Shown here: one piece after another, positions 9,813-48,168 of the stretch
Layout: each line of letters begins with the position of its first letter
How positions within the stretch are numbered: the first letter of the stretch is position 1
DNA from: Pantoea sp. At-9b
GTDB lineage: Bacteria; Pseudomonadota; Gammaproteobacteria; Enterobacterales; Enterobacteriaceae
Assembly (NCBI RefSeq): GCF_000175935.2
Contig: NC_014837.1
Location: 2,666,001 to 2,730,000, forward strand
Direction of reading: 5' to 3'
Length of the DNA stretch: 64,000 bases
Made by a program: the position numbers and the translations under genes
The notes under the pieces: generated by a model
Databases searched by the model: none
Told to the model about the DNA's origin: nothing
Seen by the model: the letters and a program-made list of their open reading frames with translations, nothing else

Positions 9813-9954
9813 TGACCCTCACCCTAACCCTCTCCCGCAAGCGGGAGAGGGAACAGATCGAGTATATGGCACATCTCCCTTATGGGAGAGGGAACAGATC
9901 GAGCATATTGCACATCTCCCTCTCCCTTATGGGAGAGGGCCGGGGTGAGGGTCA
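9813..9954. repeat. triple-hairpin intergenic repeat, copy B
   Basis: This has the same build as copy A: three CTCTCCC/GGGAGAG stem-loops joined by two spacers containing GAACAGATCGAGTATATGG or GAACAGATCGAGCATATTG. Here the whole unit is bounded by a perfect outer inverted repeat, GTGACCCTCACC on the left and GGTGAGGGTCAC on the right, so it can fold as one large structure. It lies in the phn operon between phnD and the first phnE, a position where such hairpins can stabilise the upstream binding-protein message. Confidence 0.88.
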
Positions 9955-9968
9955 CAAACCGCAGAGGT

Positions 9969-11860: not shown

Positions 11861-12517
11861 CGGCAGCGGGTTGCACCGAGAAGGTTCCGCTCGCTGGTGC
11901 GGACTGACATCGAGAAGGTTCCGCCCGCCAGGCATTGGGGAGTTTCAGTTGTAACGTGCAGGCGGACGGGCAAAGGTCCGAGGGCGCGGACCTTTGCAAT
12001 CCGCGCCTTGCGGCGTCCTCGCGCAGCGCTTCGCGCTGTTCCCTCGCTTATCACTCAGGCCGCACGGACCGCGCGGATTCGCCATCCATGGCTCATTCCG
12101 CTCTCTCGCCGCATCCATGCGGCTCGTCCTGGCCTTCCCTCTGCGCTCGGCGCTGCGGATGCCGCCCACCCCACCGTCTGAAAGACCGCAGAAAAAAAAG
12201 CAAAAAGCGAAAAGAAACAAACAAAAAGATAACGGCAGCTACAGCGGCAGGTGGGGCGCCATCCGGACTCGCTGAGCGAATGAAGGCTGCCAGGATGAGC
12301 CGCATGGATGCGGCGAAAAGCGGCGTTGAGCAGGAGCGAATCGCCGCCGGTCCGTCGGCAGTTGTAGCGGCGCGATTTATCGCGCAAAAAACACCGCGAA
12401 GCGGCGAGGGAGGCTGGCGCGAGGCCCGGGATTGCAAAGGGTCCGGCCTGGCACCCTTTGCTCGGTCGCCGCACCGGCGAACTGAAACTACATCAGCTTA
12501 TGGCGAACGAAACCCGC
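11861..12517. repeat. large palindromic non-coding element, copy 1
   Basis: This roughly 650-bp element recurs at 27488-28200 and 46504-47192. The left arm (11941-12175) and right arm (12251-12489) are imperfect inverted repeats of one another around an A-rich centre; both arms carry GCCGCATCCATGCGGC or its complement. A 10-bp perfect stem (11971-11996) uses different bases from the other copies but still pairs. A REP motif (12364-12385) is embedded in the right arm. Open frames run through it because of its GC content, but they are not shared between copies, so I treat it as non-coding. It separates the end of phnN from the phnC promoter. Confidence 0.88.
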
Positions 12518-27487: not shown

Positions 27488-28200
27488 CGGCAGCGGGTTG
27501 ACACCGGGAAGGTTTGGCCCGCTGGCTCTGAGAAGGTTCCGCCCGCCAGGCATTGGGGAGTTTCAGTTGTAACGTGCAGGCGGACGGGTTAAGGCCCGAA
27601 GGCGCGGGCCTTAACAATCCGCGCCCTGCGGCGTCCTCGCGCAGCGCTACGCGCTGTTCCCTCGCTTATCACTCAGGCCGCACGGACCGCGCGGATTCGC
27701 CATCCATGGCTCATTCCGCTCTCTCGCCGCATCCATGCGGCTCGCCCTGGCCTTCCCTCTGCGCTCGGCGCTGTGGATGCCGCCCACCCCACCACCTGAA
27801 AGACCGCAGGAAAAAACAAAAAGCTAAAAATAAAAATCAAAAGCGAGAAGAAAAAAACAGATAAATAAAAAGCGTGCAGCGGTGGGTGGGGCGCCATCCG
27901 GACTCGCTGAGCGAATGAAGGCTGCCAGGATGAGCCGCATGGATGCGGCGAAAGGCGGCGTTGAGCAGGAGCGAATCGCCGCCGGTCCGTCGGCAGTTGT
28001 AGCGGCGCGATTTATCGCGCAAAAAACACCGCGTAGCGGCGAGGGAGGCTGGCGCGAGGCCCGGGATTGCAAAGGGTGCGGCCAGGCACCCTTTGCTCGG
28101 TCGCCGCACCGGCGAGCTGAAACTGCATCAGCCTGAGGCGAACGAAACCCGCTCAGTGCGAACGAAATCACACCTGTGGCGAACGAAATAAGCTCAGTGC
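27488..28200. repeat. large palindromic non-coding element, copy 2
   Basis: The second copy of the family has arms at about 27559-27794 and 27886-28124, flanking an A-rich centre. The 10-bp stem at 27589-27614 (TTAAGGCCCG with CGGGCCTTAA) pairs perfectly with bases different from copy 1. A REP motif (27999-28020) interrupts the right arm at the same place as in copy 1. The right end carries three direct repeats of GCGAACGAAA at about 20-bp steps. It lies between the GNAT gene and the Lrp-type regulator, in the same orientation as the other copies. Confidence 0.88.
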
Positions 28201-34604: not shown

Positions 34605-34743
34605 CCCTCACCCTAACCCTCTCCCGCAAGCGGGAGAGGGAACAGATCGAGCATATGGCACATCTCCCTTATGGGAGAGGGAACAGATCGAGCATATGGC
34701 ACATCTCCCTCTCCCTTATGGGAGAGGGCCGGGGTGAGGGTTA
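34605..34743. repeat. triple-hairpin intergenic repeat, copy C
   Basis: The third copy has three CTCTCCC/GGGAGAG stems, two spacers containing GAACAGATCGAGCATATGG, and outer CCCTCACCC/GGGTGAGGG arms. It is nearly identical to copy B and lies between the importer ATPase gene and the FAD oxidoreductase gene, again within a same-direction gene series. Confidence 0.88.
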
Positions 34744-34753
34744 CAGCCCGCAC

Positions 34754-45419: not shown

Positions 45420-46379
45420 TTAGATCTGGAAATCGATCGCCGGTTCGTCGCCGGTTTCGTAGGAGAGTGCCTGGCGTTTGATCTCTTCCAGCGACAGGTT
45501 CGCGTTACACAATTCGAGGAACTGCCAGACATAATTGCGTTGCAGCTGACCGCGCTTCAAACCAAGCCATACCGTATTGGCATCGAACAGATGACCTGCA
45601 TCGATTTTTACCAGATCCTCGCCATCGTAGATGTCGCAAGCCTGGTCAGCGAGGATACCGACACCCAGTCCCAGTTCGACATAGGTTTTTACCACATCAG
45701 AATCCTGGGCGCTGAGCACGATATCCGGCTTTAATCCGGCAGCCTGGAAAGCACGATCGACACGCGAACGTCCGGTGATGCCCTGCCGATAGGTGATCAG
45801 TGGGTAACGCCCCAGCTGACCGAGGGAAACCGGTTCACTCTGCAACAGTTCATGATCGTGCGGCACCAGCAGTGAGTGATGCCAACTGAACCACGGGAAG
45901 GCCGCCAGACTGGCGTTGTTCACCAATTGCTCACTGGCGATACCGATATCCGCTTCACCCGCCAGCAGCATGGCAACAATTTCCTGCGGCGATCCCTGGT
46001 TCAGCTCCAGTCGCACATTGGGATAGAGCTGGCGGAAGGCTTTAATCACCCGTGGCAGGCTGTAACGCGCCTGCGTGTGGGTGGTGGCGATGGTCAGCAC
46101 CCCGCTGGTTTCATTGGTAAACACATCCGCGAGGCGACGCACTTTGCCCGCTTCATCAAGGATACGTTCAGCAATGGTTAGCAGCGCTTTACCGGGTTCG
46201 GTCATTCCCAGCAGACGTTTGCCGCGGCGGATGAAAATTTCAACGCCCAGTTCATCTTCCAGATCGCGTATATGACGGCTCACCCCGGATTGCGAGGTAA
46301 AGAGCGTATTCGCCACTTCGGTCAGGTTGAACTCGCAACGGGCTGCTTCACGTATAATTTTAAGTTGCTGGAAATTCAC
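45420..46379 (-). CDS. cbl: LysR-type regulator Cbl
   Basis: The 319-aa regulator matches remembered E. coli Cbl over nearly its whole length: MNFQQLKIIREAAR, TSQSGVSRHIRDLEDELGVEIF, TIATTHTQARYSLP, SWHHSLLVPHDH, YRQGITGRSRVD and the C-terminal FDANTVWLGLKRGQLQRNYVW. Cbl activates genes for sulfonate and other organic sulfur use under sulfate limitation. The start codon is GTG, with AAGGAG 8 nt upstream. In E. coli cbl directly follows nac; here the same order is kept, but an 870-bp gap containing the large repeat separates them. Confidence 0.93.
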   Translation of the reverse strand: MNFQQLKIIREAARCEFNLTEVANTLFTSQSGVSRHIRDLEDELGVEIFIRRGKRLLGMTEPGKALLTIAERILDEAGKVRRLADVFTNETSGVLTIATTHTQARYSLPRVIKAFRQLYPNVRLELNQGSPQEIVAMLLAGEADIGIASEQLVNNASLAAFPWFSWHHSLLVPHDHELLQSEPVSLGQLGRYPLITYRQGITGRSRVDRAFQAAGLKPDIVLSAQDSDVVKTYVELGLGVGILADQACDIYDGEDLVKIDAGHLFDANTVWLGLKRGQLQRNYVWQFLELCNANLSLEEIKRQALSYETGDEPAIDFQI

Positions 46380-46503
46380 ACCCTTTTCTCCTTATTCCTG
46401 CCCCTGTTTCATCCATGTTATGAAGTTGCTGGCAGTACAACAAATAATAAAAAACGGTTTGTTATGCGGAATGGTAATAAGGATTGAGTTGTGCCCGCCT
46501 GCT

Positions 46504-47192
46504 GGCAGCAGCGGGCTGACCCGTCCGCCAGCAGCGGTTTAGCTCTGAGAAGGTTCCGCCCGCCAGGCATTAGGCAGTTTCAGCTGCAACGTGCAGGCGG
46601 ACGGGTTAAGGCCCGAAGGCGCGGGCCTTAACAATCCGCGCCCTGCGGCGTCCTCGCGCAGCGCATAGCGCTGTCCCCTCGCTTATCACTCAGGCCATAC
46701 GGACCGCGCGGATTCGCCATCCATGGCTCATTCCGCTCTCTCGCCGCATCCATGCGGCTCGCCCTGGCCTTCCCTCTGCACTCGGCGCTGCGGATGCCGC
46801 CCACCCCACCGCCCGCAATCCCGCAGGAATAAACAAAAAGCTAAAAATAAAAATCAAAAGCGAAAAGAATAAAACAGATAAGTAAAAGGCGTGCAGCAAG
46901 CGTGGGGCGCCATCCGGACTCGCTGAGCGAATGAAGGCTGCCAGGATGAGCCGCATGGATGCGGCGAAAGGCGGCGTTGAGCAGGAGCGAATCGACGCCG
47001 GTCCGTCGGCAGCGTGAATGAGCGAAGGCACCGCGAAGCGGCGCGGGAGGCTGGCGCGAGGCCCGGGATTGCAAAGGGTGCGGCCAGGCACCCTTTGCTC
47101 GGTCGCCGCACCGGCGAACTGCAACTGCATCAGCCTGAGGCGAACGAAACCCGCTCAGAGCGAACGAAATCACCTCAGGGCGAACGAACAAT
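46504..47192. repeat. large palindromic non-coding element, copy 3
   Basis: This copy has arms at about 46573-46810 and 46902-47128 around an A-rich centre (46811-46901). It lacks the REP insertion found in copies 1 and 2: positions 47013-47028 instead carry a sequence that pairs with the left arm at 46677-46694, so this looks like the unmodified form. The 10-bp stem is at 46606-46631. Three GCGAACGAA repeats mark the right end. It lies between the end of nac and the cbl promoter. Confidence 0.88.
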
Positions 47193-47250
47193 CAGAAAAG
47201 TACGCACAAGCACGTGTCGGGCGCAGCCTGACCGACCGCCCCGGTCGCAA

Positions 47251-48168
47251 TCAGCTCACCAGCATCAATTCGCGATCTTCCACCATCGGCTTATTGAGCA
47301 GCGACAGCAGAATATTTTTCACCGCCTGAGCCGACGGAGACAACGGCAGGCGTGCTGAAACATTCAGCGACAATGGCAGGTTCAGTGACGGGCTATTGAT
47401 ACGCGCCATCCACGCATGGGTGGAACTCACCAGCGCACGCGCAGCCGATTCCGGCAGTACGGTTACACCCATACCGCTCGATACCGCCGCCGTCAGCGTC
47501 GAAATCGATTCAATCTCACCGATAATGCGTGCACTCAGGCGACGCAGGGAGAAGGCTTCATCCACACGTTTACGCACGGCGCTGTAGTCACGTGGCAGGA
47601 ACAGGTTCATCTGTGCTACCTCGGCCAGATCTACCGTCGCGCCCGGGCAGTCAGTGGCACCGACCAGATAGAGTTCTTCTTTCATCAGCGGAATGCTGTT
47701 GATACCTGCTGTCGGGGCGCGGTCATACAGCACCGCCATATCCAACTGACCGTTCATCACTTTTTCATTCAGTGAGGTGCCACTATTTTCATGCAGATAG
47801 ACCAACACATCCGGGTACTGCTCGCGCACGGTTTGCAGCAGCGGCATGGTCAGCGATGAGGCTGCGGTACCCGGTGCCAGACCAATCGACACCTGGCCAT
47901 TCAGCGCCTGACCGGCATTGATCACTGCCGTCTGTGCCTGTTCACACTGACGCAGGATGGTGCGTGCGTGGGCATAAAGAATTTTACCGGCTTCAGTCGG
48001 CGTTACGCCGCGCTTGGTACGGATCAGCAGTTGCTGATCAAGTTCGTTCTCCAGCGTTGCCACCTGCTGGCTAAGCGCGGGCTGCGCAATATGCAACACT
48101 TCTGCTGCCTGAGTCAGGCTGCCGATATCGACGATTTTTACAAAGTATTTCAGTCGTCTTAAGTTCAT
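47251..48168 (-). CDS. nac: nitrogen assimilation regulator Nac (LysR type)
   Basis: The 305-aa regulator has the same length as E. coli Nac and closely matches it as remembered: RRLKYFVKIVDIGSLTQAAE, VLHIAQPALSQQVATLE, LIRTKRGVTPTEAGKILY, FLPRDYSAVRKRVDEAFSLRRL, and GEIESISTLTAAVSSGMGVTVLPESAAR. Nac couples sigma-70 operons for nitrogen-source use to the NtrC system, because it is itself made only from a sigma-54/NtrC promoter. GGAGG stands 4 nt before the ATG. A sigma-54 promoter and a perfect NtrC site lie upstream. The catabolic genes in this window are plausible Nac targets. Confidence 0.95.
   Translation of the reverse strand: MNLRRLKYFVKIVDIGSLTQAAEVLHIAQPALSQQVATLENELDQQLLIRTKRGVTPTEAGKILYAHARTILRQCEQAQTAVINAGQALNGQVSIGLAPGTAASSLTMPLLQTVREQYPDVLVYLHENSGTSLNEKVMNGQLDMAVLYDRAPTAGINSIPLMKEELYLVGATDCPGATVDLAEVAQMNLFLPRDYSAVRKRVDEAFSLRRLSARIIGEIESISTLTAAVSSGMGVTVLPESAARALVSSTHAWMARINSPSLNLPLSLNVSARLPLSPSAQAVKNILLSLLNKPMVEDRELMLVS

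Follow-up and report, generated by a model that had tools for sequence, protein, structure and literature searches.

The 64-kb stretch of DNA analysed here (the window) contains three imperfect palindromes of ~650 bp on the same strand and in the same orientation (11861-12517, 27488-28200 and 46504-47192), and raises the question of what such an element is: one very large hairpin, a mobile element, a structured RNA or another kind of site. An earlier note on this sequence had described the copies as sharing near-identical stretches and their arms as imperfect reverse complements, and both descriptions are borne out. The copies are 92-94% identical over 300 nt in the left part and 87-97% identical over 145 nt in the right part, and inverted-repeat local alignment of the two halves of each copy gave scores of 114, 80 and 96 for copies 1, 2 and 3 (179/251, 94/123 and 194/278 identical columns), far above the maxima of 33, 29 and 31 obtained from 200 dinucleotide shuffles per copy. 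The quoted sequence landmarks are present as well, except that the right end of copy 3 reads CTGCAACTG, not CTGAAACT. Minimum free energy (MFE) folding of the full copies yielded a single dominant hairpin at -348 to -383 kcal/mol.

Our best reading, which we hold at a probability of about 55%, is that each giant palindrome consists of two homologous structured units of ~250 nt (L and R), placed divergently around an A-rich spacer, and that these are dispersed RNA units of the TwoAYGGAY type acting as putative CsrA-binding decoys, with expression and CsrA binding being what we infer rather than observe. The features of the three copies are listed below; the bit scores of cores are those of model R1, which was built from 18 L units without those of this genome, G041, G006 and G033.

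11912-12176, minus strand: left unit (L) of copy 1, sense from centre to outside, 93% to the L arm of copy 3
12058-12134, minus strand: core of the copy 1 L unit, a three-way junction with two GGA-loop hairpins (R1, 85.7 bits, E = 3.3 × 10−20)
12177-12250, no strand: A-rich centre of copy 1, flanked by both arms
12251-12517, plus strand: right unit (R) of copy 1, 89% to the R arm of copy 3; core 12288-12361, 40.7 bits (R1)
27525-27796, minus strand: left unit (L) of copy 2, 95% to the L arm of copy 3; core 27676-27752, 83.9 bits (R1)
27797-27885, no strand: A-rich centre of copy 2
27886-28156, plus strand: right unit (R) of copy 2, 91% to the R arm of copy 3; core 27923-27996, 43.1 bits (R1)
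28126-28190, plus strand: outer tandem units of copy 2 around GCGAACGAAA, by eye
46504-46575, plus strand: left outer units of copy 3 (GGTTCCGCCCGC...), by eye
46542-46820, minus strand: left unit (L) of copy 3; core 46693-46769, 85.1 bits (R1); TwoAYGGAY match, 37.8 bits
46821-46894, no strand: A-rich centre of copy 3
46895-47160, plus strand: right unit (R) of copy 3; core 46939-47012, 36.4 bits, E = 2.8 × 10−7 (R1)
47125-47190, plus strand: outer tandem units of ~20 nt of copy 3 (GCGAACGAAA...), by eye

Two back-to-back units in each palindrome

The L and R arms align as homologues in inverted orientation, yet form separate families across species. If the long hairpin were what is preserved, an L arm should match its own R arm better than those of other clades. 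In 29 elements, the Watson-Crick match between arms was 60.6% within the same element vs. 58.6% between arms of other clades, and 68.1% vs. 66.5% when G-U was counted. The L arm thus matches its own R arm barely better than the R arms of other clades, which indicates that selection acts mainly to preserve something other than the large hairpin. Selection on one giant hairpin of RNA or DNA in its entirety could account for the very low MFE of the full element and for the slightly higher match within elements, but the difference is small, cross-clade pairs reach 66.8%, and partnerless solo and tandem units exist, so that we consider it very improbable. Among the options that the earlier note had offered, structured RNA is thus the best supported, as two back-to-back units with strongly covarying local hairpins; the single hairpin that it had envisaged is not.

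Besides L|R pairs, there are solo R units (10/10 loci in G004 and 5/6 in G046 under the BLAST threshold applied) and arrays in which L units occupy one side and R units the opposite one (L059, L062, L063, L065, L121, L122 and L123; L053 denotes the same place as L121, and L057 the same place as L123). Three divergent unit pairs stand in tandem with a period of about 550 bp at G145:C1:1431555-1432927, and in another genus (G129) L179 carries, at about 1455-2643, an almost perfect pair of ~275-bp inverted arms, separated by a centre of ~640 bp that contains an open frame of 138 aa. Under the two-unit reading, the palindrome as a whole would simply follow from the divergent arrangement of its units. 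It counts against this reading that RNA transcribed through both units could fold into the long hairpin and so mask the local hairpins.

In the unit core, a closing stem encloses two hairpins, both of which bear GGA in the loop. Outside the core lies a strong 11-bp outer hairpin, which covaries most, followed by tandem tails. In a hand-chosen set of 23 L units from 22 genomes, with the structure derived from the same kind of sequences, 97.3% of 914 cells were paired. Changes on both sides were found at 14/40 pairs (76 cells), a level that 0/500 shuffles attained and that compares with at most 4 pairs in slid controls; further pair types, of which there were 23, were no more numerous than in shuffles, 90/500 of which reach that count. 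The outer stem that encloses both hairpins has covariation support, with both-side changes in helices 2-5 and one-side changes only in helix 1. For R units the evidence comes from the fitted model, and automatic folds misplaced their helices; in the model-fitted alignment, one inner pair of the R-like units is mostly A-A, and other mismatches occupy 62/1009 cells.

From 100 loci we obtained 166 matches, of which 150 were aligned and 108 were distinct. GGA is present in both loops of 106/108 distinct units and of 0 on the opposite strand in this model-fitted alignment, a count that leans upward because the model consensus holds GGA and some loci were fetched by a pattern with the first GGA loop; the stems take many sequences. 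CA(N)GGANG motifs number 1.5-2.9 per unit, vs. 0-0.27 on the opposite strand and about 0.3 in shuffles, and plain GGA in R units is no richer than in shuffles (6.5 vs. 7.3 and 7.6 vs. 7.5).

As to coding potential, the earlier note had seen no shared reading frame. Internal open reading frames do vary in length and in frame, although one minus-strand open frame is common to five or more copies in this genome (L001, L003, L004, L007 and L011). Despite this frame, a coding sequence is disfavoured, because the stems covary as hairpins and the frames differ in other copies.

Family assignment and distribution

No Rfam family except tRNA reaches its gathering score in the 64-kb window. In a scan by E-value threshold, the L unit of copy 3 matched TwoAYGGAY (RF01731) with 37.8 bits (E = 2.8 × 10−4), below the gathering score of 43, and 0/12 loci of the window family (type I) in this genome reach that score. 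A second, diverged family of giant palindromes with the same core occupies five chromosomal places (C1:1910841, 1957588, 2453766, 2546953 and 2925203) and two on C2 (180023 and 387602), some as half copies; in this family 4/6 scanned loci attain the gathering score, at 43.0-49.8 bits. Among six relatives scanned, L121 (47.9 bits), L062 (46.1), L168 (43.0) and L183 (37.7) matched TwoAYGGAY, and L116 and L180 gave no match at E ≤ 5. All RF01731 matches run in the centre-to-outside sense, and the alignment has the same two GGA loops. The core is thus very probably of the TwoAYGGAY kind, which gives a family to an element that had gone unrecognised, the second palindrome family scoring at or above gathering and the window family below it. 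A match to MIR7723 (38.6 bits, with gathering set at 200) extends over the palindrome itself and was taken as spurious.

Model R1 found three L cores (84-86 bits) and three R cores (36-43 bits) in the window, the next best match having E = 4.8. Its search of this genome, in which 150 of 2545 first-look candidates were scored, returned 33 matches, every one within a locus of one of the two palindrome families: type I accounts for 12 L and 11 R, and the second family for 10. The whole-genome count that the earlier note had suggested gave 11 full copies and one partial copy of type I in this genome; the window spans C1:2666001-2730000 of its 4.37-Mb chromosome. Within the genus, 56/60 genomes match (this one included), and within the family 38/246 do (this genome and two genus-mates included), many over only 30-150 nt. 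Relatives found by pattern include Pantoea, Tatumella, Izhakiella, Winslowiella, Enterobacter, Serratia, Symbiopectobacterium and Erwinia (among 80 of 94 stretches). With R1 at 1 × 10−5 and strict filters, the figures were 25/198 family genomes (this one included) and 23/154 genera. The E. coli genomes gave no match.

A plain REP or ERIC is ruled out by size and anatomy: by eye, the ends of the three window copies bear no GTAG or CGTC tag, and the length is 650 bp. A GTAG-tagged REP (GTAGCGGCGCGATTTATCGCGC) does lie inside the right units of copies 1 (12364-12385) and 2 (27999-28020), is absent from copy 3, and recurs in three further copies of this genome (L008, L009 and the partial L012). 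The window also holds a different 148-nt intergenic repeat rich in CCCTCTCCC/GGGAGAGGG (2714-2861, 9816-9963 and 34605-34752; one copy is 66% alike), and a RyhB RNA match (L158 4463-4528, 86.3 bits) lies near one copy of the palindrome in this genome. In G059, the outer hairpin of the right units at L132, L133 and L134 has an insertion sequence within it or next to it; by eye these are of two unlike kinds, one IS110-like and two IS3-like, the latter in the loop of that hairpin. REPs are known to attract insertion sequences (available part of PMC1525189).

Strand, genomic sites and neighbouring genes

A DNA hairpin should give equal numbers of G-T and A-C. Read from centre to outside, the stems of the 23 L units hold G-T and A-C at 16:0, and the model-fitted alignment gives 23:0 in 43 L-like units and 49:4 in 65 others. 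With Watson-Crick-only folding, for which 229 distinct arms were thinned to 41, 17, 73 and 15 per group, the bias was weaker, at 40:19 overall, clear in L (19:4) and not clear in R (21:15). Both arms lean to G-U alike though they lie on opposite strands, as expected of an RNA per unit and not of a DNA cruciform, and the units probably work as RNA.

A site of DNA structure (a cruciform, or a nucleoid- or replication-related site) at which polarity matters would fit the location of the L unit on the leading strand in 12/12 copies of this genome (dnaA at 891, dif-like site at 2124712). Since eight of these copies have convergent genes on either side, the orientation of L is not imposed by gene direction. 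Among the right-arm matches listed, the same polarity was found by eye in G006 (12/12), G041 (13/15) and G031 (1/1); it is mixed in G029 (5/8), G004 (8/10), G046 (4/6), G059 (7/14) and G053 (2/3), and reversed or mostly so in G042 (1/4), G016 (0/4), G050 (0/5), G043 (0/2) and G003 (0/2). These counts leave out opposite-arm matches, plasmid contigs, one contig-end copy and one short match in G059, as well as G018, G044 and the fragmented G048; in G006, G041 and G059, which gave no dif match, the terminus was assumed to lie opposite dnaA. A general replication polarity is thus not borne out beyond this genome, G006 and G041: leading-strand polarity is a feature of the clade and not of the element. 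Given the mixed or reversed polarity of other genomes, the location of two of the three G029 exceptions within inverted orthologous segments and the unequal G-T and A-C counts, we regard a DNA-structure site as highly unlikely. Polarity may have flipped between clades, G016, G050, G042, G043 and G003 being mostly opposite to this genome (by eye, matches listed). At L145 (G004) and L166 (this genome), the same gene pair flanks right units in opposite directions.

The three window copies lie between co-oriented genes, as the earlier note had said, but this does not hold genome-wide, where 8/12 copies stand between convergent genes, 4/12 between co-directional and 0/12 between divergent ones, placing the copies at gene 3' ends. 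Across 72 type I loci from this and ten further genomes, picked from matches and in many cases mutually orthologous and hence not independent, 45 are convergent, 24 co-directional (12 each way), 2 divergent and 1 unclassified, the two divergent ones having been scored by an ORF caller with overlapping calls. By eye, elements often start within a few bases of a stop codon. A two-way terminator or mRNA 3' stabiliser that separates neighbouring genes, in a role like that of REP/BIME, would explain both the abutting of stop codons and the predominance of convergent genes (45/71 classifiable loci, many orthologous). Against it, terminator-like sites numbered 2 vs. 1.5 expected, one copy follows a complete terminator and is not needed as one there, and the GGA loops on one strand are left unexplained; we consider such a role rather unlikely.

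That last copy (C1:112142) also bears on mobility. Its flanks are about 55 bp apart in G041 and G006, with an intrinsic terminator between them, and the element begins directly after the T-run of that terminator; no target duplication is visible by eye at this single empty site. Where copy 2 lies in this genome, G041 and G006 have two GTAG-type REPs in place of the element, and where copy 3 lies both have an element. The empty site and the REP pair indicate that gains or losses do occur. For 11/12 copies in this genome, the site is shared with one or more other genomes, and each of these copies has a partner in which both flanking proteins match. A copy nevertheless resembles, on average, the other copies of its own genome more closely than the one at the orthologous site (67/90 ordered comparisons for R and 57/66 for L). 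In trees, arms from one genome or close clade mostly cluster together; as exceptions, some G029 arms are placed among those of this genome, and G041, G006 and G033 are mixed, as are G004 and G046. This likeness within a genome at shared sites is compatible with gene conversion; we consider it less likely that elements re-inserted repeatedly at the same sites.

The mobile-element option of the earlier note therefore finds some support, in one clean empty site after a T-run and in the variable arrays. A non-autonomous element, the hairpins of which serve its own movement through a single-strand DNA or RNA intermediate and the copies of which have no cell function, would also be compatible with the solo units and with the one orientation relative to replication in 12/12 copies. 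The sharing of 11/12 sites, one with elements only 79-82% alike, implies that most copies are old, however, and the G-U bias of the same sense in oppositely placed arms would not arise from a single DNA strand; with no target duplication seen, we think this explanation unlikely.

Possible CsrA binding and comparison with known systems

CsrA is encoded in this genome, and the Rfam scans of the window and of selected loci found no CsrB/Rsm match. By consensus, the paired GGA hairpins look like CsrA sites. For TwoAYGGAY, CsrA binding has been predicted on the same GGA-hairpin ground (available part of PMC4333381). Judged from sequence, the odds that the units bind CsrA are about even. The earlier note had placed the element just upstream of a promoter, but we found no sigma70-like promoter in 46350-47300, the region of copy 3, and transcripts may therefore originate in the flanking genes and run through into the element. 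Read-through from either side would read the second arm in its centre-to-outside sense, and read-through or processed 3'-end transcripts would contain the units, the paired GGA hairpins of which may bind a CsrA dimer; the many dispersed copies could then act as a CsrA decoy (sponge) or as 3'-UTR docking sites. A precedent exists in E. coli, where read-through of a first terminator gives rise to sRNAs that interact in vitro with Hfq and CsrA (available part of PMC8144298).

More tentatively, CsrA might be titrated genome-wide by ~30 TwoAYGGAY-type decoys (33 matches) at gene 3' ends, kept for long at their sites and homogenised by gene conversion, such that total dose and read-through release tune the Csr switch. 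A global regulator would then be titrated by dispersed, homogenised 3'-end elements and not by one or two sponge genes. For TwoAYGGAY, the literature searched offers a motif-based guess at CsrA binding and no tested function; this genus, with dozens of natural units per genome, known sites, covariation and an empty site, makes that guess directly testable. A class of giant palindromes would, moreover, be explained as back-to-back RNA units. Titles and abstract openings on Pantoea/Erwinia palindromes, MITEs, stem-loop families, inverted repeats at convergent genes, CsrA decoys and concerted evolution yielded no description of these palindromes.

Among known systems, the CsrA-sponge RNAs CsrB, CsrC and RsmXYZ presumably share with the units repeated CAGGA-type motifs in hairpin loops; the units differ in having two to three sites each and in being dispersed by the dozen. 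REP/BIME and ERIC sequences are likewise intergenic and palindromic and lie mostly between convergent or co-directional genes (for REPs, available part of PMC3733652), but REP units measure 20-40 bp, vs. 650 bp here with a three-way junction and GGA loops, and GTAG-type REPs occur as separate items inside some palindrome copies. TwoAYGGAY (RF01731, clan CL00106) has the same two neighbouring GGA-loop hairpins inside an outer stem, with up to 49.8 bits in the second family of this genome. The window family differs in scoring 37.8 bits, below the gathering score of 43, in units that extend to ~250 nt with further hairpins, and in divergent pairs and arrays, which go unmentioned in the available parts of PMC2864571 and PMC4333381. 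We place the units as a probable novel variant within TwoAYGGAY, itself an RNA family of putative function, suspected of CsrA capture.
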